Assembly: GCA_947471035.1 (NCBI GenBank) | Contig: CANIWJ010000037.1 | Coordinates: 1 to 32,179 of the forward strand | Source of the DNA: Verrucomicrobiota bacterium | GTDB taxonomy: Bacteria > Verrucomicrobiota > Verrucomicrobiia > Opitutales > Opitutaceae | DNA: 32,179 bases | Reading direction: 5' to 3' | In this document: piece after piece, positions 4,250 to 28,460 of the stretch | Position numbering within the stretch: position 1 is the first letter of the stretch | Layout of the letters: every line of letters begins with the position of its first letter | Program-made: the position numbers and the translations under genes | The notes under the pieces: generated by a model | Told to the model about the DNA's origin: nothing | The model's input: only the letters and a program-made list of their open reading frames with translations | Database searches by the model: none

Positions 4250-4285
4250 TTTTAACCGCGGATTACGCGGATAGGCGCGGATTAG
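4250..4285. repeat. Left inverted repeat of GxxExxY cassette
   Basis: It reads TTTTAAC (4250-4256) followed by three CGCGGAT units starting at 4257, 4266 and 4276. Its first 19 bases match the complement of 4667-4685 exactly. It encodes the last codons and stop of the enclosed gene on the minus strand. Confidence 0.85.
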
Positions 4286-4664
4286 AACGAGCAATGCGTT
4301 TCCAAGAAAGACGCGCGAATTTGAAATTAAGGAGCAGCGCTAGTTCGAGTTCAGTGATAGCCAGATATCCAATCATCTGAGCGGAATGTGTATCAGTAAA
4401 AGTTTCCGTAACCTTGAGATCCACGATCACCTTACCGTCCACGATCAAGTCAGGCACGAGCGTATCCACCACAAGCCCGTCATAATACACATCAAACCGT
4501 CGCTGTTGCTCAACGAAATGCCCACGCTTGCGCAGCTCAATCACCAGCGCGTTTTCATATGCTTTTTCGTTTAACCCCGGCTTCAACTTATTGAGCACGG
4601 TCATCGCCGCTCCGATAATCACCTCGGAAAGCTCCCAGTGCGGCCGGTCTTTATCCGCGTTCAT
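4263..4664 (-). CDS. GxxExxY protein (PD-(D/E)XK nuclease-like, PDDEXK_3)
   Basis: The 133-residue product belongs to the GxxExxY family: GLNEKAY at about residues 30-36 gives the name motif. A PD-x-(D/E)xK-like core follows in VPDLIVDGKVIVDLKV (Pro-Asp, then Asp-Leu-Lys), and a Q-x3-Y helix (AQMIGYL) comes after. The family is placed in the PD-(D/E)XK nuclease superfamily, but to my knowledge its substrate is not established. The first codons (MNAD) and the last six codons plus stop are read from the flanking inverted repeats, so the gene and repeats form one unit. It is co-oriented with serS and tilS and would be transcribed with them. Confidence 0.85.
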   Translation of the reverse strand: MNADKDRPHWELSEVIIGAAMTVLNKLKPGLNEKAYENALVIELRKRGHFVEQQRRFDVYYDGLVVDTLVPDLIVDGKVIVDLKVTETFTDTHSAQMIGYLAITELELALLLNFKFARLSWKRIARSNPRLSA

Positions 4665-4685
4665 CAGCGTAATCCGCGGTTAAAA
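4650..4685. repeat. Right inverted repeat of GxxExxY cassette
   Basis: Read on the minus strand it begins TTTTAAC, then CGCGGAT, CGCTGAT and CGCGGAT units at near 10-bp spacing, the same plan as 4250-4285. The ATG of the enclosed gene (4664-4662) lies inside it. Confidence 0.85.
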
Positions 4686-4709
4686 ATCCGGCCGATTCAC
4701 CTCACCTCC

Positions 4710-5978
4710 TCAGCCGAAGCGCAGCACGTCGCGGCCAAAATACGGCACCAACGCGGCAGGTAGCTTCACCGTGCCGTCCGCTTGCAGGTTGTTTTCCAGC
4801 AAGGCGGCCAGCACGCGCGGCACCGCCAGACCGGAACCGTTGATCGTATGCACCAGCTCGGGTTTGCCGTCGCCTTTGCGGAAACGGATCTGGGCGCGAC
4901 GAGCCTGAAACGCTTCAAAATTCGAACAGCTCGACACCTCCAGCCAGCGCTGTTGGCCCGCCGCCCACACCTCCAAATCGTATTTCTTGGCCTGCGAGAA
5001 TCCGACATCCCCACCGCACATCAGCAACACGCGGTAGGGCAGCTCCAGCTTCTGCAACAAGCGCTCGGCGTCCGCCCGCAGCAGGTCCAGCTCGATATAG
5101 CTCTGGGTCGGATGCACCCACTTGAGCAACTCGACCTTGTCGAACTGATGCAGACGGTTCAATCCGCGCACGTCCTTGCCGTAGCTGCCCGCCTCACGGC
5201 GGAAACACGGAGTGTAGGCGGCGCGTTTCACGGGAAGAGCGGCCTCGTCCAATATCTCGTCGCGGAAAAAGTTAGTCAGCGGCACTTCCGCCGTCGGCAC
5301 GGCATAAAAGCCATCCGCCACCGCTTCATACATCTGGCCTTCCTTGTCGGGCAACTGACCCGTCGCGGTCGCGCTGGCCGCGTTAACAAAAATCGGCGGA
5401 TTCACCTCGGTATAACCCGCGACCACGGCCTCATCCAAAAAGAACTGCAACAAGGCGCGAACGATGCGTGCCCCATCGCCAATATAGAAAGGGAAACCGG
5501 CCCCGGTAACCTTCGAGCCGCGTCCGAAATCAATGATCTTGTCGAAGCCGGGAATCTCCCAGTGCGGCTTGGCCACCGACGACAGCGCCTCGCACGAGCC
5601 CCAAGTCGCGAAAGTAACGTTCTCCTCCGGCGTGCGACCCTCGGGCACGCTCTCGTGCGGAAGATTGGGCAACGAAAGCATCGCCGCCTTATGTTTGGCC
5701 TCGATTTCGACTAGATCGGCCTCGCGCGCTTTCACCTCTGCCGAGACCGCCTTCATCTCCTGCACCTTGGCGATAAACTCGGGCGAGCCCTTGGGCAGCT
5801 TGGCCATCTCGGTGTTGGCCGACTTGGATTTAGCCCGCAGCGTCTCGACCTCGACCAACTGCGCGCGCCACGCGGCGTCGAGCGCAAGGATGGCGTCGAG
5901 GTCCACCTCCAAATGTTTTTTGGCAATGGCGGCGCGGACGAGTTCGGGCGATTCGCGGAGAAGCTTGGGATCGAGCAT
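4710..5978 (-). CDS. serS: Seryl-tRNA synthetase
   Basis: This cytoplasmic class II synthetase charges tRNA-Ser with serine. Residues 1-110 form the long antiparallel coiled-coil tRNA-binding arm (heptad-rich, KSKSANTEMAKL at 51-62). The catalytic domain shows the TAEVPLTN loop (229-236), class II motif 2 around FRREAGSYGKD (259-269) and motif 3 NGSGLAVPRVLAALLEN (380-396). Length is 422 residues, normal for the family. The ATG at 5978 (MLDPKLLRE) fits the conserved SerRS N-terminus; an upstream in-frame start at 6014 would add 12 unconserved residues. It is divergent from the ABC exporter gene, with about 150 bases between for both promoters. Confidence 0.97.
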   Translation of the reverse strand: MLDPKLLRESPELVRAAIAKKHLEVDLDAILALDAAWRAQLVEVETLRAKSKSANTEMAKLPKGSPEFIAKVQEMKAVSAEVKAREADLVEIEAKHKAAMLSLPNLPHESVPEGRTPEENVTFATWGSCEALSSVAKPHWEIPGFDKIIDFGRGSKVTGAGFPFYIGDGARIVRALLQFFLDEAVVAGYTEVNPPIFVNAASATATGQLPDKEGQMYEAVADGFYAVPTAEVPLTNFFRDEILDEAALPVKRAAYTPCFRREAGSYGKDVRGLNRLHQFDKVELLKWVHPTQSYIELDLLRADAERLLQKLELPYRVLLMCGGDVGFSQAKKYDLEVWAAGQQRWLEVSSCSNFEAFQARRAQIRFRKGDGKPELVHTINGSGLAVPRVLAALLENNLQADGTVKLPAALVPYFGRDVLRFG

Positions 5979-6132
5979 AAAGACCGAGCGAAACGCCCCC
6001 GGCGCGGCGCGCAAAACATAAAATCACCCCGCCCAAGCTTCCCTCCCCAACGCCAAAGCACTTCCGGCAGGATGTGCGGGCGGGATTCCAGACTTGCCAG
6101 TGCGGGGGCTCACCTGCGGCTATCACCGGCCC

Positions 6133-7878
6133 GTGTTCAGCCGATTCAGACCCTATTTCCGCTACCTTGTCGCCGTGCGCTGGCCCATCGCCGGCGCGCT
6201 GTTCTTCGGCTTGATCTACGGTGTGGCCAACGGTGCCGGCCTGCCGCTCATGGTGAAGAAGGTCTTCCCCCTGATTTTCGATCCCCATGCGGAAAAACTC
6301 ACCCGGCTCGAACTTGTGGTCGTCGCCCTCTGGCTTCCTTGCATTTTCCTGATTCGCGGCATCTCCGGCTACTGCAACAGCTATCTGATCCAACTCGCGG
6401 GTAACAAAGTCTTGGAAGCGATCCGGGTGGATTTTTTCCGCAAGCTCCAACATCTACCGCTTTCTTTCCTACAACGCCAGCAAACCGGCGATCTCATCGC
6501 CCGCGGTGTCACCGACACCCAGTCGCTGCAAATGGCGCTCACTACCATCGCCAACGACATCCTCAAACAGCCCACCACCCTGATCGGCGCTTTGGGCTGG
6601 CTCGGCTGGCAGGCCTACCACGAACGCGGTGTGCTCCTCGTGCTGGTAACCATGGCCGCCGTGCCGCTCAGCGTCTTCCCCATCCGCTTCGTCGGACGCA
6701 AACTCGTTGCCCGCGCCCGCCTGGTCCAGGCCCAGCTGGGCAACGTCAGCGAACGCTTCAGCGAGAGCCTGCAAGCCGCCCGCGAGGTCCGCGCCTTCGG
6801 GCTTGAAGCCCGCGAAACGGAACGTCTCGCCGCCACTAGCCGCCTGCTGGTCGCTGCCCAGATGAAGGTCGTAAAATACCAACAGGCCCTTTCGCCCTCG
6901 ATCGAGATCATCTCCTCCGCCGGACTATCGGTCACCCTCGTTTACGCCTACCTCACCGGCCTCTCATTGGAGTCGTTCCTCGCCATCATCGCCGCGCTCT
7001 ACTCTTGCTACGACCCGATCAAAAAACTCGGGGCCCTGCAAAACGTCGCCAAGGTCGGCACCGCCGCGCTCGACCGCCTCGAGCAAATCCTGCACGCGCC
7101 CGACACCATCGCAGAACCCGCCCACCCGGTCGCCATTACCCGTTTGCGCGGCGACATCGTTTTTGAGAACGTCGGCCTCCGCTACGATACCGGCACCGAG
7201 GCGCTGACTTCGATAAACGTGAACCTGCCCTCCGGCACCGTCTGCGCACTGATCGGCCCCAGCGGCGCGGGCAAATCGACCTTTGTCCATGTCCTGCCGC
7301 GCTTCTACGAGGCTACCCAAGGCCGCGTCACCATCGACGGTATCGATATCCGCCAACTCCGCCTCGCGGACCTCCGCCGCCAGATCGCCATCGTCGCGCA
7401 GGACCCGGTGCTGTTTCGCGATACGATTCTGAACAACATCCGGCTTGGCCGCCCCGACGCTACGCCCGCCGAGATCGAGGCCGCCGCCCGCGCCGCTTAC
7501 GCCCACGACTTCATCAAGGGCCTGCCCGAAGGCTACGAAACCGTGGTCGGAGAACGCGGTGCCTCGCTCTCCGGCGGCCAGCGCCAACGCATCGCCATTG
7601 CACGCGCCTTCCTAAAAGACGCGCCCATCCTTCTGCTCGACGAAGCCACCTCCGCCCTCGACGCCGAGAGCGAGTCGATGATCCAGCAAGCCCTGCAAAA
7701 ACTCATGCTTGGCCGCACCACCCTGATGATCGCGCACCGCTTTAGCTCCATCCGCGACGCCAGCCGCATCCTCGTCTTCGAGGATGGCCGCATCACCGGC
7801 GACGGCCCGGCCGCCACCATTTTGGAAACCCACCCCTTGGCCCGAAAAATGGCCGACCTGCAGCGCAAGGACGTCTGA
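6133..7878 (+). CDS. ABC exporter, fused membrane and ATPase domains (MsbA-like)
   Basis: This half-transporter has an N-terminal six-helix membrane domain (about residues 1-310) followed by a nucleotide-binding domain. The latter carries Walker A GPSGAGKST (375-383), signature LSGGQRQRIAIARA (from 479) and Walker B ILLLDEATSALD (about 499-510). Such proteins dimerise and flip lipids or drugs; MsbA moves lipid A-core. The GTG at 6133 (reading MFSRFRPYFRYL) matches the usual start of these proteins; a TTG at 6094 would add 13 unlikely residues. It leads a plus-strand run with an FkbM methyltransferase and a GT10 enzyme, so a role in glycolipid export is plausible, though the substrate cannot be told from sequence. 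Confidence 0.88.
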   Translation: MFSRFRPYFRYLVAVRWPIAGALFFGLIYGVANGAGLPLMVKKVFPLIFDPHAEKLTRLELVVVALWLPCIFLIRGISGYCNSYLIQLAGNKVLEAIRVDFFRKLQHLPLSFLQRQQTGDLIARGVTDTQSLQMALTTIANDILKQPTTLIGALGWLGWQAYHERGVLLVLVTMAAVPLSVFPIRFVGRKLVARARLVQAQLGNVSERFSESLQAAREVRAFGLEARETERLAATSRLLVAAQMKVVKYQQALSPSIEIISSAGLSVTLVYAYLTGLSLESFLAIIAALYSCYDPIKKLGALQNVAKVGTAALDRLEQILHAPDTIAEPAHPVAITRLRGDIVFENVGLRYDTGTEALTSINVNLPSGTVCALIGPSGAGKSTFVHVLPRFYEATQGRVTIDGIDIRQLRLADLRRQIAIVAQDPVLFRDTILNNIRLGRPDATPAEIEAAARAAYAHDFIKGLPEGYETVVGERGASLSGGQRQRIAIARAFLKDAPILLLDEATSALDAESESMIQQALQKLMLGRTTLMIAHRFSSIRDASRILVFEDGRITGDGPAATILETHPLARKMADLQRKDV

Positions 7879-8069
7879 CCGGGGCCACAGTAGCCAAGCC
7901 CCACACCCGCCCGACCCCATGTCCGAACCCGCCTCAACCCAGCGGCACGAACCGCCGCCGCCTCTGGCTGCGCCTCGTACTTACCTTGGAAAATTTCGCT
8001 CCCGCCGAGCCTGCGACCAGTCCCGGGACAACCATTGACCCCTGGGAACCGAGCCCCTTTCAAAACACT

Positions 8070-8906
8070 ATGACGCCTCCCTCCCCCGCCCCCGCACCGT
8101 GGGGAACGCACCCGGTGTCCGCCGGCCCACGCCGCTGGCTGCTCCGCCTGCTTCACTCCCTGCCCACCGGCTCCGCATGGCGACGTCTTGCGCTCTGGCT
8201 GCGCAAACCGCTCAAAAACTCCCTGCCCCCCGTGGTCGATGTTGAAATCTGGGGCCTGCGCCTGCGTTTACAAACCCGAGGCAACCTCTCCGAACAGCGC
8301 CTGCTACTGATGCCCCAACATCTGGATACACTCGAACGCGCCATTCTCGCCCGCGAGCTTCGTTCCGGCAGCGTCTTCTTCGACATCGGTGCCAACATCG
8401 GGGTTTACTCCCTCTGGGTCGCCTCGGCCTGCGGTCAAGCCGTGCGCGTTGAGGCCTTCGAGCCCGACCCCGCGCTTTGCCAACGCCTCTCCTTTAACCT
8501 CGCCACCAACACGCTCACCCAGGTCAACCTCAACCCCGTCGCACTAGGCCGCAGCGAAGGTACCGCCACCCTCGTAAGTGGCGCAGGTAACAGCGGGGAA
8601 AACCGGGTCGAAGTCGCCCCCGACACCGAGGCAGCCTCCGGCAATCTGGTCGTCACCACCCTGACGGGCTTTGTCTCGCGCAAAAACATCCCCCGCATCG
8701 ACGCACTTAAAATCGACGTTGAAGGCTTCGAAGTCGACATTCTGGAACCTTTTTTCGCCACCGCCCCGCGCTCGGTCTGGCCTCGTCTGCTGATCTGCGA
8801 ACTCATCCACGAACGCGAACACGCGCTCGGCCGGCTCCTTGCCAGCCAGGGCTACGTCCTGACTGAGAGCAGCCGTCTGAACGGCATCTATCGCCTCGCC
8901 CATTGA
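8070..8906 (+). CDS. FkbM family methyltransferase
   Basis: The 278-residue product has the Rossmann SAM-binding motif FFDIGANIGVYSL (about 103-115), the acidic strand VEAFEPDP and the IDALKIDVEGFEVDIL segment typical of FkbM O-methyltransferases, which often modify sugars or polyketides. The ATG at 8070 gives a proline-rich leader before the conserved domain; a TTG at 7986 in the same frame is less likely. It ends 6 bases before the GT10 gene, suggesting a shared transcript and methylation of a surface glycan. The gap 7879-8069 contains only a possible 39-codon frame (7919-8038) that I do not trust. Confidence 0.85.
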   Translation: MTPPSPAPAPWGTHPVSAGPRRWLLRLLHSLPTGSAWRRLALWLRKPLKNSLPPVVDVEIWGLRLRLQTRGNLSEQRLLLMPQHLDTLERAILARELRSGSVFFDIGANIGVYSLWVASACGQAVRVEAFEPDPALCQRLSFNLATNTLTQVNLNPVALGRSEGTATLVSGAGNSGENRVEVAPDTEAASGNLVVTTLTGFVSRKNIPRIDALKIDVEGFEVDILEPFFATAPRSVWPRLLICELIHEREHALGRLLASQGYVLTESSRLNGIYRLAH

Positions 8907-8912
8907 GGGAAC

Positions 8913-10007
8913 GTGCGCCATCTAACTGCTAATTTACCCATGGCCTCCGCCTCGGTTTCACAGACTTACAACCCCTCAACAGAATCCTCGAAACGGATTC
9001 GCGTAAAATTCCTCAGTCGCATCGTCCTGCCCGACCTCAACATCGGGCAAGACTACTTACGGCGGTTTCCGGGCCGAGTGCCGACATGGCACAACTGCGA
9101 CTTCCTTTTCGACCCCTCCGAGCGCGAATACGACTGGCTCGTTGTATACGACGACCTTCCCCGCAACGCTCCGGCCGAGCCCCTTGCTTGCCCGTCCGGG
9201 CACACCCTGCTGCTCACTGGCGAACCGTCCTCTATCACCTACTACGGTCGCGCGTTCCTCGAACAATTCGGACACGTGCTCACGAGTCAGGAACCTTGGG
9301 CGCTGCGCCACCCCGGCGTAATCCGCCGCCAGGCAGGTTTACTCTGGTACTATGGCGGCAGCGGCGAACACGGCACGCACGACGCACTGTCCACCGCCTC
9401 GCCCGCGCCCAAAACCAAACTCTTTTCCACCGTTTGCTCGAACAAGGCCATGAGGCACACCTTGCACTCCCGACGCCTGGCGTTCACCAAACAGCTGAAA
9501 CAAGACCTGCCCCTACTCGATGTCTTCGGCTACGGAATGGGCAAACTTAACGACAAGGCTGAGGCGCTTGACCGGTATAAATACCACCTCGTCATCGAAA
9601 ACCATTCATGCGTCCACCACTGGACTGAGAAGCTTGCCGACGCTTATCTCGGCCACTGCCTGCCGCTTTACTTTGGATGCACTAACTTAGACGAATACTT
9701 CCCCCGAGACAGTTACATCTGGATCGACATCCGAGATTATGACCGGGCGCGCGCCGAGATTGAGCGCGTCATCCACTCAGATGAATACGAACGCCGTCTG
9801 CCTTCTATTCGAGAGGCTCGCCGCCTCATCCTCGAAGAATACGCCACCTTTCCGCAGCTCGCCAAACTCATCTCCGAGCGGCACACATCGTGCCTGCCGG
9901 ATAACGTTATATTGCGAGGACGCCGCGCCGCGCGCGCAAGACGCCCATTCATTGGCTTCCTGGAGATTTTCGCCAAAATGCGTCAAAAACTCCCCTTGCG
10001 TAGCTGA
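8913..10007 (+). CDS. Glycosyltransferase family 10 (fucosyltransferase-like)
   Basis: The C-terminal half carries the hallmark of GT10 alpha-1,3/4-fucosyltransferases: YKYHLVIEN followed by HHWTEKLADAYL, then PLYFG and NLDEYFP (about residues 222-264). In the family this region binds GDP-fucose. The N-terminal half is a variable acceptor domain. The start is uncertain: GTG at 8913 has a GAGGGA sequence 8905-8910 that overlaps the previous stop, while ATG at 8940 lacks one but matches normal length. A tract of eight T then eight G directly follows the stop. It probably decorates a polysaccharide or glycolipid, with donor sugar inferred only from family. Confidence 0.8.
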   Translation: MRHLTANLPMASASVSQTYNPSTESSKRIRVKFLSRIVLPDLNIGQDYLRRFPGRVPTWHNCDFLFDPSEREYDWLVVYDDLPRNAPAEPLACPSGHTLLLTGEPSSITYYGRAFLEQFGHVLTSQEPWALRHPGVIRRQAGLLWYYGGSGEHGTHDALSTASPAPKTKLFSTVCSNKAMRHTLHSRRLAFTKQLKQDLPLLDVFGYGMGKLNDKAEALDRYKYHLVIENHSCVHHWTEKLADAYLGHCLPLYFGCTNLDEYFPRDSYIWIDIRDYDRARAEIERVIHSDEYERRLPSIREARRLILEEYATFPQLAKLISERHTSCLPDNVILRGRRAARARRPFIGFLEIFAKMRQKLPLRS

Positions 10008-10023
10008 TTTTTTTTGGGGGGGG
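10008..10023. repeat. Homopolymer junction T8G8
   Basis: Eight T are followed by eight G in the 22-base gap between the convergent GT10 and hldA genes. There is no hairpin before the T run, so it is not a standard terminator. Such tracts are prone to slippage and sequencing error. Confidence 0.9.
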
Positions 10024-10029
10024 CTTGGA

Positions 10030-11004: not shown

Positions 11005-11606
11005 TAATGGCGCGGGGCGGCGGGCAGGACGGACGGCCATTCATGAACGTCGATCATCTCCAGCCATTGGTGTAAAATCAATGTGTGGACCTCTTGGATA
11101 CGCGCAGTGTTGGCCGAGGGCACGATGATCTCGTGGTCGCAGGTGCCACGAGCCTTGCCACCATCCTTGCCGGCCAAGAGGACCGTAATCACGCCAAGCG
11201 GGCGGGCGGCGGCGAAAGCGGCGAGCACGTTGGCGCTGTTGCCGCTGGTGGTAAATCCCACCAGCACGTCGCCCCGTCGCCCCAGCGCCTCAACCCCGCG
11301 GGAGAAGACGTGTTCATAGCCGTAATCGTTGCAGATGCAGGTGATGGCGGTCGGATCGGCGTTCAAGCAGACTGATCGCAGGGCACGGCGCTCACGGCGG
11401 TAGCGACCCACCAGCTCTTCGGAAAGATGGAGGGCGTCGGCTGCACTGCCTCCGTTGCCGCATGTGAGAAGTGTGCCGCCCTCGCACAGGCTGGCGAGGA
11501 TGGCCGCCCCGGCCGCCTCGACCGCCGGGGCCAGCGCGCCGCAAGCCTGAAGGACGGAGCGAAGTTCCTCTAAGCTCTGGGTGAAGGTGGGGAGGGGGGC
11601 GACCAT
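11004..11606 (-). CDS. gmhA: Sedoheptulose 7-phosphate isomerase (SIS domain)
   Basis: GmhA converts sedoheptulose 7-phosphate to D-glycero-D-manno-heptose 7-phosphate, the first committed step towards ADP-heptose. The 200-residue protein is one SIS domain with the GNGGSAADALHLSEELVGRY segment, the FTTSGNSANV phosphate-binding loop and the conserved IQEVHTLILHQWLE helix carrying active-site residues. It starts two bases after hldD ends and its stop overlaps the hldA start by one base, so the three are almost certainly co-translated. Confidence 0.95.
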   Translation of the reverse strand: MVAPLPTFTQSLEELRSVLQACGALAPAVEAAGAAILASLCEGGTLLTCGNGGSAADALHLSEELVGRYRRERRALRSVCLNADPTAITCICNDYGYEHVFSRGVEALGRRGDVLVGFTTSGNSANVLAAFAAARPLGVITVLLAGKDGGKARGTCDHEIIVPSANTARIQEVHTLILHQWLEMIDVHEWPSVLPAAPRH

Positions 11607-11608
11607 GT

Positions 11609-12610: not shown

Positions 12611-12624
12611 GGGTGGGGGAGAAT

Positions 12625-15931: not shown

Positions 15932-15933
15932 TT

Positions 15934-19252: not shown

Positions 19253-19364
19253 TAAGCGCGTAAGCCAAAACATCCGGCCCCACCCATGCAAAACAGATTC
19301 TCACCCCGTTCAAAACTCCTCGCCACCCCCCCGCCCACCCACCTCTACTCGCCTCTCACGCCTT

Positions 19365-19399: not shown

Positions 19400-19406
19400 T
19401 TCCTCC

Positions 19407-20381
<975 letters not shown>

Positions 20382-20402
<21 letters not shown>

Positions 20403-20490
20403 TGGTCACTAATCCCGAGCCATCAGCCTCCCAGCGCATCTCCGATTCTTTCCTAATTAGTGCCCATTAGTGTTCATTAGTGGTTAAAAA
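20382..20490. repeat. CACTAAT-type phased inverted repeat, copy 1
   Basis: The left arm starts TTAAC then CACTAAT at 20387, 20397 and 20407 (exact 10-bp phase). The right arm is its mirror, three ATTAGTG units at 20455, 20465 and 20475 ending in GTTAA. The outer 12 bases of the arms are perfectly complementary. It occupies the entire oppD-oppF junction, supplying oppD's stop and abutting oppF's ATG at 20492. The approx. 40-base centre differs from other copies. Confidence 0.9.
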
Positions 20491-20491
20491 A

Positions 20492-21472
20492 ATGTCCGCC
20501 GCCGATCCCATCCTCGAACTACGCGACCTGCGCACCCATTTCCCAATGGAGCGCGGCCTGCTGTTCAAGCAGCGCACCGGCACGGTCAAAGCCGTCGATG
20601 GCGTATCCCTTTCTCTCGCTCGCGGCGAAGTCCTCGGCCTGGTCGGCGAATCCGGCTGCGGCAAATCCACCCTCGCCCGCACCATCATGGGCCTCGCCCC
20701 CGCCACCTCGGGCAGCGTCTGGCTCGAGGGCGTCAACATCACCGCCACCCCCGCCACCGGCGAGGCCCGCCGCGCCTTGCAAATGGTCTTCCAAGACCCT
20801 TTCGCCTCGCTCAACCCCCGCCTCAGTGTCGGCGATGCCCTCGCCGAACCGATCCGCGTGCACCGTCTGCGCCCCGCCGCCGAGATTCCGGCCCGCGTCG
20901 CCGAGCTCGCCGCCCTGGTCGGCATCCCCGCCCGCAGCCTCACCAAATACCCGCACGAGTTTTCCGGCGGACAACGCCAGCGAATCGCCATCGCCCGCGC
21001 CCTCGCCCTGGAGCCCCGCATCATCGTCGCCGACGAGCCCGTTTCCGCCCTCGACGTCTCCATCCAGGCCCAAATCTTAAACCTGCTGGCCAAACTCGTG
21101 CGCGAGCTCGGTCTGAGTCTGGTCTTCATTGCCCACGACCTCTCCGTGGTAAAACACCTCTCCGACCATGTCGCCGTGATGTATCTGGGCCGCATCGTGG
21201 AGCTCGGCTCCGCCGCCGACGTGATCGAGCGCCCGCAACACCCCTACACCCGCGCTCTGGTCAGCGCCGCACCCCGCCCCGACCCCGACGGCGAACGCGC
21301 CCGCCAACGCATCGTCCTGGCCGGCGACCCGCCCAGCCCGCTCAACCCGCCCCCCGGCTGCCACTTTCACCCGCGCTGCGCCTACGCCACAGAAATCTGC
21401 AAAACCACCGTGCCCGCCCTCGCCCCCCACGCCGGCCGAGACGTCTCGTGCCTCCGCGCCGCGGAGCTCTAG
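20492..21472 (+). CDS. Oligopeptide/dipeptide ABC transporter ATP-binding protein (OppF/DppF type)
   Basis: The second ATPase of a peptide importer: Walker A GESGCGKST, signature SGGQRQRIAIARA, Walker B IIVADEPVSALD, and the C-terminal oligopeptide/dipeptide extension HPYTRALVSAAPRPD followed by PPPGCHFHPRCAYATEIC. ATG 20492 (MSAADPILEL) is chosen; the GTG at 20480 lies in the inverted repeat and would add only four residues. It normally pairs with the OppD-type protein as a heterodimer, and both must work with permeases encoded elsewhere. Confidence 0.92.
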   Translation: MSAADPILELRDLRTHFPMERGLLFKQRTGTVKAVDGVSLSLARGEVLGLVGESGCGKSTLARTIMGLAPATSGSVWLEGVNITATPATGEARRALQMVFQDPFASLNPRLSVGDALAEPIRVHRLRPAAEIPARVAELAALVGIPARSLTKYPHEFSGGQRQRIAIARALALEPRIIVADEPVSALDVSIQAQILNLLAKLVRELGLSLVFIAHDLSVVKHLSDHVAVMYLGRIVELGSAADVIERPQHPYTRALVSAAPRPDPDGERARQRIVLAGDPPSPLNPPPGCHFHPRCAYATEICKTTVPALAPHAGRDVSCLRAAEL

Positions 21473-22016
21473 GCGCCTAAGCCCTCCGCGACGTGTGAAG
21501 CGGGACCATTAAAACATCATGAACCGAGGTGCGCCGCCACTGTGACAAACGTGGCCAAGGCCTGGGTTGGAGATCCGGCTTTAGCCGGTTCTGGGAAAAG
21601 TGACCACGCATACGCGGACCGCCTAAAGGCGGGACTCCAGCAAGCGGAAACGTGGTCGCTGAGTGGATTTCGTAACTACACATCCAGCCAGAGCTGATTA
21701 AATGGATACCTTCCGCAGGTGTGGTGTTATACCATTTCGCGTTCAAAGAAATAAAAACGAACCGTTTTAACCACTAATGATCACTAATTTTCGCTAATAA
21801 AAACAAGGGATTCGCCGCTTCTGGATTAGTGTATCTTATTGTTCATTAGTGGTTAAAAATCCGGGTGTTTTAAGATTGGATGAGGGGTCGCTACTGACGT
21901 GATCACGGTAGTGGTCGGGTTTTAATGCGGTTGAATGCAAAATGGTATTAGCTGTCCGTCCTCGCCGAGCGATAATCGCGTAATGGATGGTCAGGCCCAT
22001 TCGGACGGATGCGGGC
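21473..22016. other. 544-bp intergenic stretch with several hairpins and one phased repeat
   Basis: No credible gene is seen between oppF and the restriction-modification gene. The left part holds hairpins: GCCAC/GTGGC (21536-21555), CCGGCT-TT-AGCCGG (21575-21588), and CCGCC-TAAA-GGCGG (21619-21632) inside an outer stem of 10 bases with one mismatch (21599-21608 with 21651-21660). The right part holds the CACTAAT repeat 21765-21858 and a palindromic CGTGATCACG (21898-21907). A minus-strand frame at 21477-21746 has low-complexity, proline-rich composition and is not believed. The compact hairpins may be old dispersed repeats or structured RNA. Confidence 0.5.
21765..21858. repeat. CACTAAT-type phased inverted repeat, copy 2
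   Basis: The left arm is TTTTAAC then CACTAAT, CACTAAT, CGCTAAT at 21772, 21782 and 21792 (10-bp phase). The right arm is the mirror with one decayed middle unit and ends GGTTAAAA. The centre is shorter than in copies 1 and 3. Confidence 0.9.
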
Positions 22017-25000
22017 TCAGGCTTCGGCGGCGGCGGTTTCGGCGGCGGGAGTCTCGGCCGTGCCCTCGACGAGGGCGATTTCCTCCGGCGTCAGGCCGTA
22101 GAGTTCATACACGAGCTTATCAATGTCGCGGTCGGTCTTGCGAATCGCGTTTTGCAGGGCGGCGCGCTCGGTGTCGGATTTGGCAATCAGTATAGATGGT
22201 TTTAGGGCGGAAATTTTATCCACCAACGCTACAAGTCGGTCATGCTGCATTTTTGCAGTGGAATCACTTGGGTTTATGTTTTTAATCGGCAGGCGAGCGA
22301 CGTTTGTACGCTTTACCTCTGCCAAGGCTTCTCCGGCTTCAGGATTAAGTGTTTGATAATACCAATTCAAAAGTCGGGAGTTAATAACACCCAAAAGATA
22401 CTTGGGCGATAGGGTTCCGGACTTGGGCACCAAAACATGCATATTATTCAGACACAAATGGCGACCGGTGTCTAAGGTGCCAATGAGGCTGTCCCCTGTC
22501 TGACGTATAAATATCTTAATTGGAGCGTCGAAGTTTGCTGCCTGGCGCGGCTCGGCGAGCCAGGGACCGAATGATATATAGCGCTTCTTTAAGGGAGCTA
22601 TTATATAACGATTTATATCTGAGCCGCGAAGATAAAGCCTGTGGTCCTTGGTTATTTTTTCGTCTGCATCAAACGGTCTTTCCTCCACTGTTTTCTTTGA
22701 TTGGGGCGGCGTTCCTTTTCCTGTCTGGTAAGGCTTTATGCCAACATTGATGTCGCACAGCTCATCGAGCCGACATGTGTCCGACATGAGCCGCAGCGCG
22801 ATAGCTTCCTCTGCTTCGTTAATGAATATATTTATCGGTTCACCATTCGCCTTTAGCCATTTGTCCTGGGCGTGTCGGAGAGTGGTACTGGGGAGATCAA
22901 CCAGCTTGCCGATAGATTTGTTATACTCATCTACAATTCGAACTGTAGTTTGCCAGCCGGTCGGACTTTCCTTTACCAAGATTAAGATTTCCGTGTCCAC
23001 GGTTGCGTCCTCAAAAACAGGGTAGCGGAAGTGTACAATCTCATGTATTTGACTGTTTTCGCATACAAATTTTCGGGTTGTTCCTTGGAGCACATTTGTA
23101 AGCCAAGGGTTTGGTATAATCATCCCGAAAATCCTACCCGGCTTGAGTAGTGACTTAATCGCTTTCTCCATGAAAAGCAGGTAACTGTCTAATTGGTAGC
23201 TTTGGCAGGTATAGTTGGCGCGCAGATACTTTTTCTGGGAATCATCAATCGATGCACCATACGGCGGATTTCCCACCACCGCATCAAAGCCGCCCTTATC
23301 CATGATCTTGTCGAAACCTATGTCCCAATCGAAGGCGTTGACGCGGACGAGTTCGGCGGGGTCGAGGGAGAAATCGGAGGCAATGAGGGAATTGCCGCAT
23401 TTGATATTCTGATCAAGCGCGGGCAGCAGCGCCTCTTTATTAAAAAGATCTTTGGTTTGAAGGTAGATGCTCTCGCGGTTTTCGCCTTCCAGCATTTTCA
23501 GGTAGAGCGAGAGCTGGGTGACCTCGACGGCCTGGGCATCGATATCCACGCCGAAGACGTTGTTTTGCAGAATCTGGCGCTTGAGGCTAGTGGTCAGGCG
23601 GACGTTACCGGCCGCGTCGAGGTAGTAGTCTTCGCGGTGGGGGCGGAGGAGTTTATCGAGCGGCTCACCGGTGAGCTTAGCCCGCTCGCCAAACTCGCGC
23701 ACGCGTTCGGTGAAGACACGGAGGTAATGCTCCATCACGCGTTCATAAACGCGGATAAGGAAGGATCCGGAACCGCAGGCGGGATCGAGGAAGCGGAGCT
23801 TGGCGACCTGGGCGGGGGTCTTGCCCTCAAGCTGGCGGCCGACGGTCTGCTCGACGATATAATCCACGATGTAGCGGGGCGTGTAGTAAACGCCGCCGGC
23901 TTTGCGCACCTCGGGTTTTTCCTCGATGGTGGCGCCACGACCTTGGGGACGGAGGACCTTGCCGAGGAAGCGTTCGTAGGCGGAGCCGAGGATCTCGACC
24001 TTGATGTCGGCGAAGTTGTAGCCCTCGTCGTCGGAGGTGAGGTCGTCGATGATGTTGGCCAGCCATTCGTCGCCGACGACGAGATCTTCGGAGAAATGGG
24101 GCTTGAAGAGCTGTCCGTTGAAGAAGGGTTGGTAGGAAGGCGGGCGTTGGTCCAGGGCGCGGACGTGGGCGATGAAGGCGCGGTAGAGGCCGCCTTCGGC
24201 GGGCGGGGCGTAGCGGGGCGAGGGCGGCTCTTCATCGACGGCGTCGGGCAGGAGTGTCTTGCGGGCGTCGAAGGCGCCGCGTTTTAGGCGCGGACGGGCA
24301 TCCTGCTGGTGCCACCACTCGCGGAGCTGGGTGGAGAGGAGGGTGCCGGTGTCTATGCCGCGATCTTCGCAGATGCGCAGGAAGACGAGCCGGTCGAGAA
24401 TGCGCTGGGCCGCCTCGTTGAGGTGGTTGCCAAGGAGCAGGTCGTCGCGGTCGTTGTGCTTGAGCAGATCGGAGCCAAGGCGCTGGCGGGACTCGTCGAG
24501 GAAGTTGAGAAACTCGGCGTCGAGGGACTTGGTGCGATCGGGCCGGATGAGATAACCTTGGCGGGCCTTGAGGCGGGCGGCGCGCTTGGGCAGGGCGTCG
24601 ATCAGGCGGTCTATGGAGCCGTCTTGGACATTTTCGTAGGCAAGAAGCCCCCAAAGCTCGGCGGCGGAATCGAGATAACCGGTGAAATGGAGACGTTTCC
24701 ACAGACCCACGTTTATCGACTCCGACCGGTGAGGGCGGGAGCCGACGACGTAGACAAAGATCTCCTCAAAATCAGAGAGCAGGGCGAGCGGGATGCTGCG
24801 GGCGTAAGCGTCGCGCTTGGCCTGATAGGCATGGCCCCCATGCAGGGTTTCGGCGGGTTTTTTGGCCTCGCAGGTCAAACGTTCGAGCCGGGCGATGCGG
24901 AAGACGTAGTCGGCGCGCTTTTGTTTGCCGGAAATTTCGGTGCGGACCTCGATGTCCACCTCGCGTTCGGTGTGGATCAGGCCCTTGCGGTTGCCGACAT

Positions 25001-25157
25001 CCCAGCCCAGGGCGGCGAAGAAGGGATTAAGAAAGTCTTCGCGGAGCTTGGCCTCGTTATAATCGGGTCCGGTGTAGTAGGGCTGCTGCCGGGAGAACTG
25101 GGCAACGAGGCGAGAGAGCTCGGCCTTAAAAGTCTCAAAAGTCGCGGTAGGGACCAT
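22017..25157 (-). CDS. Type IIG restriction-modification enzyme (fused nuclease, N6-adenine methylase, specificity domain)
   Basis: One 1046-residue polypeptide carries all activities. The N-terminus has a PD-(D/E)XK-like site (D83 in RADYVF; E97-A-K99). The methylase has motif I DPACGSGSFL (about 457-466) and motif IV NPPYG (about 627-631). The C-terminal third contains a TaqI/Eco57I-like target-recognition region (GSDINRYI, NSRLLNWYY). Such enzymes cut unmodified DNA at a distance from the site. ATG 25157 is preferred to TTG 25163. DNA coding residues about 610-990 is clearly richer in A+T than the rest. It is not accompanied by other restriction genes and is bracketed, together with trmL, by CACTAAT repeats. 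Confidence 0.88.
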   Translation of the reverse strand: MVPTATFETFKAELSRLVAQFSRQQPYYTGPDYNEAKLREDFLNPFFAALGWDVGNRKGLIHTEREVDIEVRTEISGKQKRADYVFRIARLERLTCEAKKPAETLHGGHAYQAKRDAYARSIPLALLSDFEEIFVYVVGSRPHRSESINVGLWKRLHFTGYLDSAAELWGLLAYENVQDGSIDRLIDALPKRAARLKARQGYLIRPDRTKSLDAEFLNFLDESRQRLGSDLLKHNDRDDLLLGNHLNEAAQRILDRLVFLRICEDRGIDTGTLLSTQLREWWHQQDARPRLKRGAFDARKTLLPDAVDEEPPSPRYAPPAEGGLYRAFIAHVRALDQRPPSYQPFFNGQLFKPHFSEDLVVGDEWLANIIDDLTSDDEGYNFADIKVEILGSAYERFLGKVLRPQGRGATIEEKPEVRKAGGVYYTPRYIVDYIVEQTVGRQLEGKTPAQVAKLRFLDPACGSGSFLIRVYERVMEHYLRVFTERVREFGERAKLTGEPLDKLLRPHREDYYLDAAGNVRLTTSLKRQILQNNVFGVDIDAQAVEVTQLSLYLKMLEGENRESIYLQTKDLFNKEALLPALDQNIKCGNSLIASDFSLDPAELVRVNAFDWDIGFDKIMDKGGFDAVVGNPPYGASIDDSQKKYLRANYTCQSYQLDSYLLFMEKAIKSLLKPGRIFGMIIPNPWLTNVLQGTTRKFVCENSQIHEIVHFRYPVFEDATVDTEILILVKESPTGWQTTVRIVDEYNKSIGKLVDLPSTTLRHAQDKWLKANGEPINIFINEAEEAIALRLMSDTCRLDELCDINVGIKPYQTGKGTPPQSKKTVEERPFDADEKITKDHRLYLRGSDINRYIIAPLKKRYISFGPWLAEPRQAANFDAPIKIFIRQTGDSLIGTLDTGRHLCLNNMHVLVPKSGTLSPKYLLGVINSRLLNWYYQTLNPEAGEALAEVKRTNVARLPIKNINPSDSTAKMQHDRLVALVDKISALKPSILIAKSDTERAALQNAIRKTDRDIDKLVYELYGLTPEEIALVEGTAETPAAETAAAEA

Positions 25158-25211
25158 GTGCAAGAGTTTTTGAGCAGGCCGGAAAGGTGGAGCAAGGGAA
25201 AGTATGCCCCC

Positions 25212-25676
25212 CTACTCCGGCATGCCGATTTGCCGCAGTGCTTCGTAGCACGCCACGCCCGCCGCCGTGCTCAGGTTTAGCGAACGCAGCGCGGTATTGG
25301 CCTGAGGAATCGTCACGCTGCGCGTCTCGCCCATTTCCTCGTAAAGCCACTTCGGCGACCCCTGGCCTTCGTTGCCAAAAACCAAGCCATCGCCGTCCTC
25401 GTAACGCACGTCCCAGATCGTCTGCTGGGGTCCGGTCTCGACCAGCCAAAGACGCCGCGGCGCGTGCGGGCTGGCCTTGAACGCCGCCCAATCCTCATGC
25501 TGGTGCACATCGAGCGAAAACCAGTAATCCATGCCCGCCCGCCGCAACGCCGCATCGGTGATCTTATAGCCAAGCGGATGGATTAGATGCAGCCGCGATT
25601 TCGTGATGGCGCACATCCGCCCGATATTCCCCGAGTTCTGCGGGATCTGCGGCTGAAAAAGGACGATGTGCAGCAT
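25212..25676 (-). CDS. trmL: tRNA (cytidine/uridine-34-2'-O)-methyltransferase TrmL
   Basis: A minimal 154-residue SPOUT methylase that modifies wobble base 34 of tRNA-Leu in E. coli. The knot motifs are clear: PQIPQNSGNIGRMCA near the N-terminus, LVFGNEGQGSP, and the final IPQANTALRSLNLSTAAGVACYEALRQ. ATG 25676 (MLHIVLFQ) is the conserved start; an upstream ATG at 25703 would read into the adjacent inverted repeat. It lies between the restriction gene and a CACTAAT repeat, both on the same strand as thrB and smpB. Confidence 0.95.
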   Translation of the reverse strand: MLHIVLFQPQIPQNSGNIGRMCAITKSRLHLIHPLGYKITDAALRRAGMDYWFSLDVHQHEDWAAFKASPHAPRRLWLVETGPQQTIWDVRYEDGDGLVFGNEGQGSPKWLYEEMGETRSVTIPQANTALRSLNLSTAAGVACYEALRQIGMPE

Positions 25677-25686
25677 GGAAGATTTT

Positions 25687-25796
25687 GAACCACTAATGAT
25701 CACTAATTTCCGCTAATAAATACGTCCTCAAATCAACACCCGGGCCAGTCCGGCCCTTTCCGAATTAGTGACCATTAGTGAGGATTAGTGGTTAAC
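25687..25796. repeat. CACTAAT-type phased inverted repeat, copy 3
   Basis: The left arm is TTTGAAC then CACTAAT, CACTAAT, CGCTAAT at 25691, 25701 and 25711; the right arm is ATTAGTG three times at 10-bp phase (25764, 25774, 25784) ending GTTAA. It fills the 121-base gap between the thrB stop and the trmL start almost completely. Confidence 0.9.
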
Positions 25797-25797
25797 C

Positions 25798-26739
25798 TCA
25801 GCCCTCGACCACGTAGCCGACGTTATCCGCCGCCAGATCGCGGGCCTCGCTAGGCACGCCGACCGCCGCGAAAGCCGCCACCATAGCCACGCCCACCGCC
25901 GCCGCCACGCTGGCATCGCAGACACAAAGCACGCTCGAACCGCTGCCGCTCAGCCAACCGGTGTAACCGCCCGCCGCCACCCCGGCGGCGATGGCTTCGC
26001 GCCCGCCGCGAATCTTGGGCAGGCGGTAAGGTTCGTGCATGAAATCCGACACCGCCCCGCGCAACCGCGCGTAGTCGCCGGTCGCCAGAATCGCCACCAC
26101 GTAGGCCGCGCTGTTGATGCTCTTGACCGCGTCGAAATACGGCAGCGTCGTCGGCAGCACGCCGCGCGATTCCTTGGTCAACAGCTCGACCGAGGGCGAG
26201 GTGACGACGAAGCGCAGCGTATTCGGTAAGGGGATGCGCACGGTGCCGACGTAGTCGTTTTTCTCCGGCGAACAGCGTGCCACGCAAAATCCGCCCAGCA
26301 AACCCGCCGCCGCGTTGTCCGGATGGCCTTCCAAAAACGAGGCGACCGCGACCAGTTGCTCGCGCGTCAAAGGTTCGCCGCACAGGATATTCAACCCCGC
26401 GAGCACCCCGCCGATAACCGTGATCGAGGAACCCAGCCCGCGCGCGGGCGGCACATCGCCCTCGATTCGGTAAGAAAACGCAAAACCGCCCACCCGCGCC
26501 AAATTACCAAAAGCCCGGGCCGTGGCCGCAACCATCTCTTGCGCCCGTCCGTCGGTCTCCCGTGCGGGAAGCGGATGCCATCCTGCGACGGCCGGACCGG
26601 CGGGCGCGGCCTCGCGACGCACCGTCACGCTATTATAGATGGTGAGCGCGAGTCCGAGGGAGTCGAAGCCCGCCCCGCAGTTCGAGGTGCTGCCGGGCAC
26701 GCGAATGGTGACTTGTTGAGGGCGGGTTTCCGGATTCAT
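25798..26739 (-). CDS. thrB: Homoserine kinase
   Basis: A GHMP-family kinase that phosphorylates homoserine in threonine biosynthesis. The N-terminal VPGSTSNCGAGFDSLGLAL, the ATP loop PPARGLGSSITVIGG and the C-terminal GWLSGSGSSVLCVC segments are characteristic. ATG 26739 is chosen; a GTG at 26742 immediately before it adds one residue. Length (313) is normal. No other threonine genes are nearby. It follows smpB by 46 bases on the same strand. Confidence 0.93.
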   Translation of the reverse strand: MNPETRPQQVTIRVPGSTSNCGAGFDSLGLALTIYNSVTVRREAAPAGPAVAGWHPLPARETDGRAQEMVAATARAFGNLARVGGFAFSYRIEGDVPPARGLGSSITVIGGVLAGLNILCGEPLTREQLVAVASFLEGHPDNAAAGLLGGFCVARCSPEKNDYVGTVRIPLPNTLRFVVTSPSVELLTKESRGVLPTTLPYFDAVKSINSAAYVVAILATGDYARLRGAVSDFMHEPYRLPKIRGGREAIAAGVAAGGYTGWLSGSGSSVLCVCDASVAAAVGVAMVAAFAAVGVPSEARDLAADNVGYVVEG

Positions 26740-26785
26740 CACGTGAAAGGTTTTGAGTGGTGCGGGCCGCAGGCAGCAAGCGGGT

Positions 26786-27274
26786 TTAGCGACGCTGATT
26801 GGCCTGCTTCAGGGCCTGCTTCATTTCCATGTTCACGACCCGCTTCTTCAAGTCGTCGCGTTTGTCGTGCAGCTTTTTTCCGGTGCAGAGCGCGATCTCC
26901 ACCTTCACCAACGCTTCTTTGAAATAGAGCCGGAGCGGCACGAGGGCGAAGCCGCCAATCTGGAGCGCCTGGGCGATCTTGCGCAGCTCGTGTTTGTGCA
27001 GGAGCAGTTTGCGGGTGCGGCGGGTGGGGTGGTTGTTGGAATTGCCGAACGCGTATTCGTCGATGTGCGCGTTCATCAGCCAGAGATCGCCTTTTTCAAA
27101 ACGGCCAAAGGCGTCGTTAATCTGCGCCCGACCGGCGCGAATCGCCTTAACTTCGGTGCCTTGCAACTTGATGCCCGCCTCGAAGCGCTCTTCCACGGCA
27201 AAATCCCGCAACGCCTTGGCGTTGCGGATTTCGGTGTAGCGTTTGGCGTCCTTCTTGGACTTGGCGGCGGCCAT
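26786..27274 (-). CDS. smpB: SsrA-binding protein SmpB
   Basis: SmpB brings tmRNA (SsrA) to stalled ribosomes for trans-translation. The 162-residue protein shows FEAGIKLQGTEVKAIRAGRAQI, the beta-barrel core with HIDEYAFGNSNNHPTRRTRKLLLHK, and the positively charged C-terminal tail LHDKRDDLKKR that reaches into the mRNA channel. The tmRNA gene itself is not in the window. The upstream 37-base gap to the rpoZ terminator is too short for an obvious extra promoter. Confidence 0.97.
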   Translation of the reverse strand: MAAAKSKKDAKRYTEIRNAKALRDFAVEERFEAGIKLQGTEVKAIRAGRAQINDAFGRFEKGDLWLMNAHIDEYAFGNSNNHPTRRTRKLLLHKHELRKIAQALQIGGFALVPLRLYFKEALVKVEIALCTGKKLHDKRDDLKKRVVNMEMKQALKQANQRR

Positions 27275-27311
27275 GGCGGTTAGGGGAGCGTGACGTGAAG
27301 CGGGCTAAAAA

Positions 27312-27342
27312 CAAAAGCCGCCACCCGCATTCAGGTGACGGC
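27312..27342 (-). terminator. Intrinsic terminator after rpoZ
   Basis: On the minus strand GCCGTCACC pairs with GGTGGCGGC (plus-strand arms 27334-27342 and 27317-27325, one G-T pair) and a TTTTG tract follows. It is 33 bases past the rpoZ stop and upstream of smpB. Confidence 0.75.
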
Positions 27343-27374
27343 GCGACTGCGGCGGGCGGAGCGCCGAGGAGTGC

Positions 27375-27569
27375 TCAGGCGAGCTCGTAGGTAATCTTGC
27401 CCTCGATGATCTCGCGCAGGGCGATATCCTCGGGAGAAAGTTTTTCCAACGACTCGACCAAGGGACGGCTGCCCTTTTTGAGCTGTTTTACGCGGCGCGA
27501 GACCACGTTGATGAGCACGTTCGGGTCTTTGATGACGGCCTTGGCTTCCTTGAGATATTCGTCGCGCAT
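27375..27569 (-). CDS. rpoZ: RNA polymerase omega subunit
   Basis: A 64-residue protein with the omega core: VLINVVSRRVKQLKKGSRPLVE, then EDIALREIIEGKITYE, which matches the conserved 'R.RQL..G..P.V......ALREI..GKI' helix pair. Omega stabilises and helps assemble RNA polymerase. ATG 27569 (MRDEYLKEA) is chosen over 27638. The small size is usual in this phylum. It is divergent from cutA across 154 bases that carry no other feature. Confidence 0.88.
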   Translation of the reverse strand: MRDEYLKEAKAVIKDPNVLINVVSRRVKQLKKGSRPLVESLEKLSPEDIALREIIEGKITYELA

Positions 27570-27723
27570 GATTTTTAAAAAAGAGGGGCGGAGAGATTGA
27601 GAACCGGAGAGCACAAAACCCGGCGCGGCGTCGGTCAAGGGTCATTTTCCCTCTGCATTTTTTCGTTTTCCCCCTCGCCGCCTGCCGATTTTCCGCGCAC
27701 TTCGACCTCCCCGCAAATTCGCC

Positions 27724-28044
27724 ATGTTAATCGCCACCACGACCGTAGCCAGTTCCAGCGAAGCCGAACACCTCGCCGCCGCCTGCATCGAGCAAAACCT
27801 CGCCGTATGCGCCCAAGTCGAAGGCCCGATCCACTCGCACTACGTCTGGCAGGGTCGCCGTACCGTCGCGCAGGAGTGGCGCATCACGTTTAAACTTCTG
27901 GAAACCCAGGCCGACGCCCTCACCGCCTACGTTCACGCCACTCATCCTTACGAAGTTCCGCAGTGGATTTTGGTCACCGCCGCACGAGTAGGAGAAAAAT
28001 ACTTGTCATGGGCTCGCGCGCCCCGTAGCTCAATCAACCTTTAA
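27724..28044 (+). CDS. cutA: CutA-like divalent-cation tolerance protein
   Basis: The 106-residue product has the CutA core: ACIEQNLAVCAQVEGPIHSHYVWQG, then EWRITFKLLE and HPYEVPQWI. CutA forms very stable trimers resembling PII proteins; its role in metal tolerance in E. coli is only partly understood. It starts the plus-strand pair with the small basic protein, 33 bases upstream of it. Confidence 0.95.
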   Translation: MLIATTTVASSSEAEHLAAACIEQNLAVCAQVEGPIHSHYVWQGRRTVAQEWRITFKLLETQADALTAYVHATHPYEVPQWILVTAARVGEKYLSWARAPRSSINL

Positions 28045-28077
28045 TCCGTTTCTTAACCACACGACCCTCTTACAGCC

Positions 28078-28233
28078 ATGTCACAACACGCCAGCCTCCA
28101 AGGTGCCAAAGGCATCGTCATCAAGCGTAACGTCCTTAAGCGCTTCGAGCGCGTGGCCATTCTCAAAAAGCGTGGCCAATGGAAAGAGGGCGAGCGCATC
28201 CTCGGCCTCCGCAAGACCAAGCCCGACGTCTAA
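28078..28233 (+). CDS. Small basic protein of Chlamydiae/Verrucomicrobia type
   Basis: ATG at 28078 opens a 51-residue frame, MSQHASLQGA... ending KTKPDV, rich in Lys and Arg. It fits the small basic protein family conserved in Chlamydiae and Verrucomicrobia (core KRNVLKRFERV and GLRKTKP). Function is unknown; charge suggests binding to RNA or the ribosome. It is shorter than most ORF cut-offs. A strong terminator follows 45 bases later. It is useful as a lineage marker for this window. Confidence 0.9.
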   Translation: MSQHASLQGAKGIVIKRNVLKRFERVAILKKRGQWKEGERILGLRKTKPDV

Positions 28234-28277
28234 GCAACGGTGCGGCTCTCGCCGCCGACCTGCTTAACAGCCCTTTC

Positions 28278-28304
28278 AGGCGACCTTAACCGGTCGCCTT
28301 TTTT
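28278..28304 (+). terminator. Intrinsic terminator after small basic protein
   Basis: AGGCGACC pairs perfectly with GGTCGCCT around a TTAACC loop and is followed by a T6 run (28299-28304). Confidence 0.9.
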
Positions 28305-28360
28305 GTGCCCCAAACAGGCAGAGGCGGAGCTATACCAAAATCCTGAACAATCTGGACGTA

Positions 28361-28460
28361 TTTTAACGCAGAGTCGCTAAGCCGCGAAGTTCACAAAGAC
28401 CCGGAAAAGAAAAAAAAGGGGGGGGGAGCTTCTCCGCGCCTTTGCGCCTCTGCGTTAAAA
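28361..28460. repeat. CGCAGAG-type phased inverted repeat (100 bp)
   Basis: The outer 13 bases TTTTAACGCAGAG and CTCTGCGTTAAAA are perfectly complementary. The left arm units are CGCAGAG, CGCTAAG, CGCGAAG and CACAAAG; the right arm, read inward on the other strand, is CGCAGAG, CGCAAAG, CGCGGAG, at 8-9 bp spacing. The loop contains an A8G9 tract (28410-28426). It lies between the small basic protein terminator and the stop of the convergent chemoreceptor gene; nothing else is seen in 28305-28519. Confidence 0.9.

Follow-up and report, generated by a model that had tools for sequence, protein, structure and literature searches.

We analysed a 32,179-nt stretch of an Opitutaceae genome (Verrucomicrobiota; contig CANIWJ010000037.1), the window hereafter, in which five inverted-repeat elements with arms of tandem heptamers had been predicted. 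All five are present, and their arm heptamers were located one by one (Table 1). One of them encloses a gene of the GxxExxY family between tilS and serS, and it is very likely that the arms and the GxxExxY gene form one unit. We propose, with a probability of about 0.62, a family of small mobile elements made of a nuclease gene and arms in its own heptamer word, in which the gene-less copies are non-autonomous and the nuclease recognises its own arms. That the nuclease also drives the movement is what we infer from this arrangement.

The association of gene and arms extends far beyond the window. In the window's own assembly (3.64 Mb in 232 contigs, 92% complete, 6.6% contamination), all four GxxExxY genes found lie between inverted heptamer arms, each pair with a different word (CACAGAG, CGCTAAA, CGCARAG and CGCGGAT). 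Of 223 sampled genomes of the order, 89 gave matches to the family profile PF13366, with up to 11 gene copies per genome. From these an order set of 93 genes with flanks was assembled (4 from the own genome, 29 returned loci and 60 stretches). An arm scorer with a pass score of at least 8 accepted 78 of the 93 loci, whereas none of 465 Markov-shuffled flank pairs and none of 32 controls around neighbouring genes passed. When flank was compared with flank without use of the motif, 76 of the 92 genes that could be tested exceeded the 95% point for mispaired flanks. A wider, prokaryote-wide set held the best 80 of at least 574 relatives, with loci from named genomes including Planctomycetota, Acidobacteriota, Chloroflexota, Pseudomonadota, Bacteroidota, Armatimonadota and one archaeal record. 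Here, 62 of 80 loci passed the scorer, compared with none of 400 shuffled flanks and none of 60 neighbouring-gene controls. The motif-free test put 40 of the 77 loci with long enough flanks above the 95% point, against a mispaired null that is inflated since words are shared. No clear arms were seen at the single archaeal locus. Among 72,556 plasmid records, 8 carry GxxExxY, all below 60% identity and with no close pairs; the two records inspected both have heptamer arms.

Arm abundance was also counted with the general pattern TTAAN{0,1}CRCNRADN{1,3}CRCNRAD, which has 88 matches in the window's genome and 1 when reversed. The 89 genomes with the gene hold 2267 matches (reversed 203) and the 134 without it hold 172 (reversed 109). 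At least five matches were found in 65/89 genomes with the gene versus 7/134 without, as raw counts that ignore kinship and genome size. Three gene-less genomes of the window's family, one of them of 6.4 Mb, have 0 matches each. Since a TTAA lead is part of the pattern, lineages whose leads differ are undercounted.

Word and spacing follow the protein. Changes were counted on a tree of 78 proteins and compared with 200 shuffles, made either overall or only among the paralogues of one genome. The seventh heptamer letter changes 5 times, compared with means of 22.5 overall and 16.3 within genomes; the first spacing changes 10 times (29.1 and 23.7), the fourth letter 13 times (30.2 and 22.8) and the fifth letter 13 times (24.6 and 22.7), and 0/200 shuffles of either kind reach any of these values. 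The second letter changes 14 times versus 26.1 in the overall shuffle, which 0/200 reach. At the tilS-serS site, a GxxExxY element is present in ten of the 15 genus genomes (the own genome and nine others), with the word CGCGGAT in the own genome, G228, G220, G223 and G230 and the word CACGGAT in G102, G231, G226, G232 and G229. The protein tree of these ten genomes splits exactly by word (support 98/96), whereas the serS tree joins G230 (CGC) to G231 (CAC) at 100/99 and both to G226 at 98/98. Word and spacing track the protein tree, not the host. As the word changes together with the nuclease, it is suggested that the nuclease reads its own arms, and recognition of its own word is likely. The original prediction of one element system in several lineages, each with a word of its own, is therefore supported both by the arms around GxxExxY in the two sets and by the agreement of word and protein tree.

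The product of the enclosed gene scored 126.7 bits against TIGR04256 (cut-off 35) and 118.2 bits against PF13366 (cut-off 22), and is a member of the GxxExxY family with predicted PD-(D/E)XK nuclease activity. In the list of open reading frames (ORFs), it is the only one of about 130 aa within the 4250-4685 arms. Its motif and active-site residues are G30xxE33xxY36, D72, D82-x-K84 and Q96xxxY100. Across 93 aligned proteins, the active-site positions hold E in 92, D in 93, E or D in 93, K in 93 and Q in 93; the window protein has D rather than E before xK, like 2 of the 93. A sequence search of solved structures with this protein gave no match. An AlphaFold2 model of residues 2-133 (mean pLDDT 91.4, pTM 0.84) was matched best by Foldseek to 4ic1 (SSO0001, a Cas4; E 1.9e-4), 3syy, and alkaline and lambda exonucleases, with a TM-score of only 0.56 to the best match; weaker matches were the Holliday junction resolvase 2eo0 and the R2 retrotransposon endonuclease (E 0.02-0.06). 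The QxxxY motif has a family meaning within the Cas4/lambda exonuclease-type nucleases. The predicted fold and active-site set, QxxxY included, thus resemble those of Cas4, lambda exonuclease and Holliday-junction resolvases, whereas the GxxExxY protein stands alone, has about 125 aa and is encoded between its own repeat arms.

Comparison of orthologous sites revealed differences in both presence and word. At tilS-serS, the arms are kept and most of the GxxExxY gene is lost in G225 (L198) and G233 (L206), the latter with one arm of each word. The complete genome G164 has neither arms nor gene, and the site could not be judged in G227 and G224. In G231, an extra outer CGCGGAT arm stands beside the CACGGAT arm, as if one element had been replaced by another. 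The second site, 20379-20489, was readable in 13 of the 15 genus genomes. It holds a CACTAAT element in two (own and G228), a CGCTAAA element in three (G225, G230 and G226), and in G232 a full GxxExxY element with CACGGAT arms, in sense direction, whose protein is 64% identical to that of the window; it is empty, with gaps of 19-40 nt, in seven (G229, G233, G164, G227, G223, G102 and G220). The third site, 25685-25796, was read in 12 genus genomes. CACTAAT is found in the own genome, G228 and G231, CGCTAAA in G225 and CGCGAAT in G224; G230 (L181) has an AATGACC/ATTGGTC array resembling the arms of S23-type elements (see below), G226 a different hairpin of 59 nt, and G229, G220, G232, G102 and G223 gaps of 15-22 nt. 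Alignment coordinates suggest gaps in G164, G227 and G233 too. Elements are also nested, with CACTAAT within CGCTAAA (L018, L007) and CGCARAG within CGCTAAA (L037), and one element is a hybrid with unlike arms (L017). A repeat sequence of the CACGCGTCTCGCGTG type was observed inside the gene-depleted tilS-serS elements of G225 and G233.

The elements are strongly biased to intergenic gaps, in sense direction and just past the upstream stop codon. Gene directions were taken from a simple caller based on ORFs. Where it gave a decision, the upstream neighbour of GxxExxY is in sense orientation at 82/85 loci of the order set and 60/68 of the wider set, and the downstream neighbour at 73/84 and 53/64; undecided or too short were 8/93 upstream and 9/93 downstream in the order set, and 12/80 and 16/80 in the wider set. 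Counting same-direction ORFs only, the median distance is 14 nt from the upstream stop codon to the start of the left arm (76 elements) and 20 nt from the right arm to the following start codon (73 elements). The 33 gene-less arm pairs listed in the own genome, with nested and overlapping pairs counted separately, lie between tandem genes in 12 cases, convergent genes in 8 and divergent genes in 0, with 13 undecided. The likeliest cause of the orientation bias is that the gene may lack a promoter and be kept where read-through expresses it.

The arm pattern itself stands out from chance expectation. In the window, a whole-arm expression matched 8 arms, compared with 0 in 100 first-order Markov sequences, and a looser three-heptamer expression matched 10 times against a Markov mean of 0.04. 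The CACTAAT arm pattern TTAACCACTAATNNNCACTAAT, with at most 2 mismatches, has 32 matches genome-wide and 0 when reversed. Neither the reversed pattern nor the shuffled and Markov controls reproduced the pattern at equal frequency, and the aligned copies have one layout in common. Some details of the predicted layout require revision. The TTTTAAC lead is typical in the window and is not general, as TTTCAC, TTCTCA, TTTAGC and GTTGCC leads occur elsewhere. The rule of conserved arms and variable centres does not apply to 4250-4685, whose centre is a gene and not a variable spacer. Near-helical phasing, which was predicted to place the heptamers on one face of the DNA, was not supported: the spacing is 8, 9, 10 or 11-12 bp by lineage, and 8+8, 9+9, 9+10, 10+10 and 9+11+9 layouts were all found. 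We rejected helical phasing as a common rule because 8+8 layouts (14/78 elements) misfit one turn and the commonest layout is 9+9 (18/78). The two arms of an element are 94% identical in their heptamer letters (1350/1435), whereas the spacers of paired arms, counted in the 71 of 78 elements with equal left and right spacing, are only 55% identical (155/280), compared with 36% when mispaired. Therefore, the heptamer words are under constraint.

Based on these results, we propose the following mechanism. The full-length form would consist of two inverted arms, each built from two to four heptamers of a single word (CRCNRAN), flanking a GxxExxY gene of about 125 aa that probably has no promoter of its own and would be expressed by read-through. 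Within its own element, the nuclease would bind the heptamers in duplex or extruded form and cut the DNA there or close by; insertion or copying would be completed by the host through repair or replication. The gene-less pairs at 20379-20489, 21763-21859, 25685-25796 and 28361-28460 would be non-autonomous derivatives on which a nuclease of matching word could act or could have acted. A change of word at one site would reflect replacement by another family member rather than gradual change of the units. The broader form of this proposal, a mobile class in which a lone Cas4/lambda-exonuclease-like protein of about 125 aa finds its element by a private tandem word, diverging words yield incompatible lineages competing for operon gaps, and S23 elements are a parallel class, we hold to be an even bet.

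Several observations weigh against the proposal. By the scorer, 15/93 order genes and 18/80 wider genes have no arms, and seven gene-less genomes still hold 5-26 arm matches. None of the four GxxExxY genes found in this 92% complete assembly matches CACTAAT, the word of the window's commonest short element; relatives hold GxxExxY genes with a CACTAAT-matching word (L154, L162). At the three sites and the nested copies, no target-site duplication was readable, the flanks being too diverged at the junctions, and no movement was observed. Because the tilS-serS element is kept in 10/15 genus genomes, movement would be slow or the site a hot spot. The second letter is not significant within genomes (mean 16.6; 21/200 reach), and linked inheritance of gene and arms could yield much of the tree correlation without recognition. 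No residue tracking the word remains significant after correction: two alignment columns, one V/L (12:0) and one C-terminal L/N (12:1), track the second letter, and both fail Bonferroni correction over 113 columns. The C-termini of the tilS-serS proteins, ...RL[SAT]WKR with the CGC word and ...DLRWKR with the CAC word, are a lead only. In addition, PD-(D/E)XK nucleases are not known to join strands alone; insertion therefore needs a host step.

Other explanations were weighed against the same data. The arms might act at the RNA level as a stem in the transcript, comparable to the 23S rRNA intervening sequences cut by RNase III, with spread or tolerance through mRNA processing. The arms can fold well as hairpins, the elements sit in sense direction within transcription units at a short distance from the upstream stop, S23 genes, which are known from intervening sequences, have similar arms, and paired spacers match better than mispaired ones. 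However, the spacers pair much worse than the heptamers, and a stem maintained in RNA predicts more left-G/right-A (G-U) than left-A/right-G (A-C) combinations. Over the 129 of 140 elements with equal left and right spacing, 57 G-U-type and 63 A-C-type combinations were counted (p = 0.65). These strand-specific counts give no sign of upkeep of RNA pairing and therefore favour recognition of DNA. We consider an RNA-level element unlikely, although an RNA step is possible given the sense bias. It is also improbable that an unrelated transposase moves the arms in trans, with GxxExxY as a linked passenger or regulator. The 28361-28460 family does sit inside a repeat that itself has inverted outer ends, and PD-(D/E)XK enzymes do not classically transpose, but no single other gene was found with the arms, GxxExxY is the sole ORF of its size at 4250-4685, the own genome's two matches to the Y1 transposase profile PF01797 have no paired heptamers in their loci of about 3 kb, and the word co-varies with the GxxExxY protein as arm abundance does with gene presence.

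The arms might instead be immobile sites to which a nuclease or regulator of the host binds, spread by ordinary repeat growth, with gene and word kept linked by vertical descent; this appears quite improbable. The persistence of the tilS-serS element and a tree correlation that arises from linked descent alone would suit such a history. It is contradicted by congeners differing in presence and word at one site, by the full element of G232 where others are empty, by nested elements, by the conflict between word and serS trees and by the many gene copies in one genome. An addiction or defence unit, in which GxxExxY cuts DNA with or without arms and the arms are self-protecting sites, is very improbable. 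GxxExxY has weak PADLOC similarity (PDC-S02, E 1e-4; Cas4 family, E 0.003-0.015), but these matches reflect a common nuclease fold, we saw no partner gene inside the arms, and many gene-less copies fit defence poorly.

Among known systems, S23 (PF05635) provides a parallel in this order. Two S23 genes are found in the own genome (C1:43938-44255 and C65:7884-8141), and the family is present in 50/103 sampled genomes. The flanks of 27/31 S23 loci (L035, L036, L253-L281) exceeded the 95% point of mispaired flanks, and the upstream gene is in sense direction in 27 of 29 decided cases. S23 elements share the arm plan of GxxExxY elements, inverted arrays of tandem words with a sense bias, and would form a second element class. 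They differ in their unrelated protein family and in far more varied words (AGGAGTC, GGCACAAA, TTCTGGG, GCTTAAA and others). The S23 protein is a four-helix bundle. The same arm plan with an unrelated protein would point to a shared, host-supplied route of insertion. The 23S rRNA intervening sequence with its S23 protein, described as a selfish element of unclear origin (PMC4990558), also has one small gene between inverted repeats, whereas the window elements lie between protein genes or in operons and carry PF13366, not PF05635.

In repetitive extragenic palindromes and their REP-associated tyrosine transposases (REP/RAYT), according to PMC3733652, inverted repeat units flank the gene and many gene-less copies exist as well. 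Their repeats lie downstream of coding regions where the neighbouring genes are unidirectional or convergent, and one genome has several word families. However, the GxxExxY enzyme is a predicted PD-(D/E)XK nuclease and not an HUH/Y1 transposase, and its arms each hold 2-4 tandem heptamers whose word and spacing co-vary with the protein. Despite a similar way of life, we did not file the elements under REP/RAYT because its defining enzyme is absent. Insertion sequences (IS elements) and miniature inverted-repeat transposable elements (MITEs) resemble the elements in the pairing of an autonomous copy with short non-autonomous copies sharing its ends, in nesting and in empty sites, and differ in that the ends of GxxExxY elements are tandem heptamer arrays. 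No DDE, HUH, or tyrosine or serine recombinase gene was found in the element; the 4250-4685 arms hold only GxxExxY.

Table 1. Positions of the elements in the window and of their parts, with the 5' positions of the CRCNRAK heptamers.
Feature	Position	Strand	Remarks	Heptamers
Full-length element, inverted CGCGGAT arms around GxxExxY nuclease gene	4250..4685	-	between tilS and serS, all three co-directional	4257/4266/4276 (+), 4678/4669/4659 (-); CGCGGAT, one CGCTGAT
Arm on 3' side of gene, TTTTAAC + CGCGGAT x3	4250..4282	+	spacing 9 and 10
GxxExxY gene, 133 aa	4263..4664	-	PF13366 and TIGR04256 profiles; ORF ends run into arms
Arm on 5' side of gene, TTTTTAAC + CGCGGAT, CGCTGAT, CGCGGAT	4653..4685	-
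Short CACTAAT element without gene	20379..20489	.	between two opp-type ABC transporter genes	20387/20397/20407 and 20482/20472/20462, all CACTAAT
Short CACTAAT element, one decayed unit (CAATAAG)	21763..21859	.	upstream flank without counterpart in relatives	21772/21782/21792 and 21851/21831, CAATAAG between last two
Short CACTAAT element	25685..25796	.	adjoins 3' end of GHMP-kinase gene	25691/25701/25711 and 25790/25780/25770
Left outer end (ATACCAAAAT...) of larger repeat around the 28361-28460 arms	28332..28360	+	from alignment with own-genome copies
CGCRRAG-type arm pair, poly-A/poly-G centre	28361..28460	.	8-bp spacing	28367/28375/28383/28392 and 28454/28446/28438

The rightmost element is composite, with the 28361-28460 arms inside a larger repeat family. 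Own-genome copies align with the window over 28332-28474, and sister copies (L063, L064, L059) have outer inverted ends ATACCAAAAT...ATTGGTAT, of which the right one is degraded in the window copy. In the centre of the arm pair (28400-28430), a run of A leads into nine G, likely a slippage-prone tract. No counterpart of the upstream flank of the 21763-21859 element was found in relatives. This element lies in a segment (about 21470-25209) that also holds an Eco57I-like restriction-modification gene (22017-25163); the segment is absent from G225 and G228, where the alignment skips from query position 2170 to 5910. Elsewhere in the own genome, an 11-kb stretch (L067, C12:37000-48105) is dense with several repeat families, of which at least two, at query 35-211 and 244-425, measure about 180 bp and occur many times in the genus; no clean empty sites were found for this stretch.

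The GxxExxY family is very widespread, and no role is known for it. Full-text searches covering openly licensed PubMed Central papers found no account of GxxExxY-arm elements and met the family only in passing. If the proposal is true, GxxExxY would be the core of an abundant, so far unnamed class of prokaryotic elements, and this would account for the origin of hundreds of hairpins between genes in Verrucomicrobiota and other phyla. The natural pairs of protein and word would serve as a code-breaking set for the reading of DNA by a small PD-(D/E)XK enzyme, and the orthologous sites would provide a case of element lineages with incompatible addresses replacing each other at one site.

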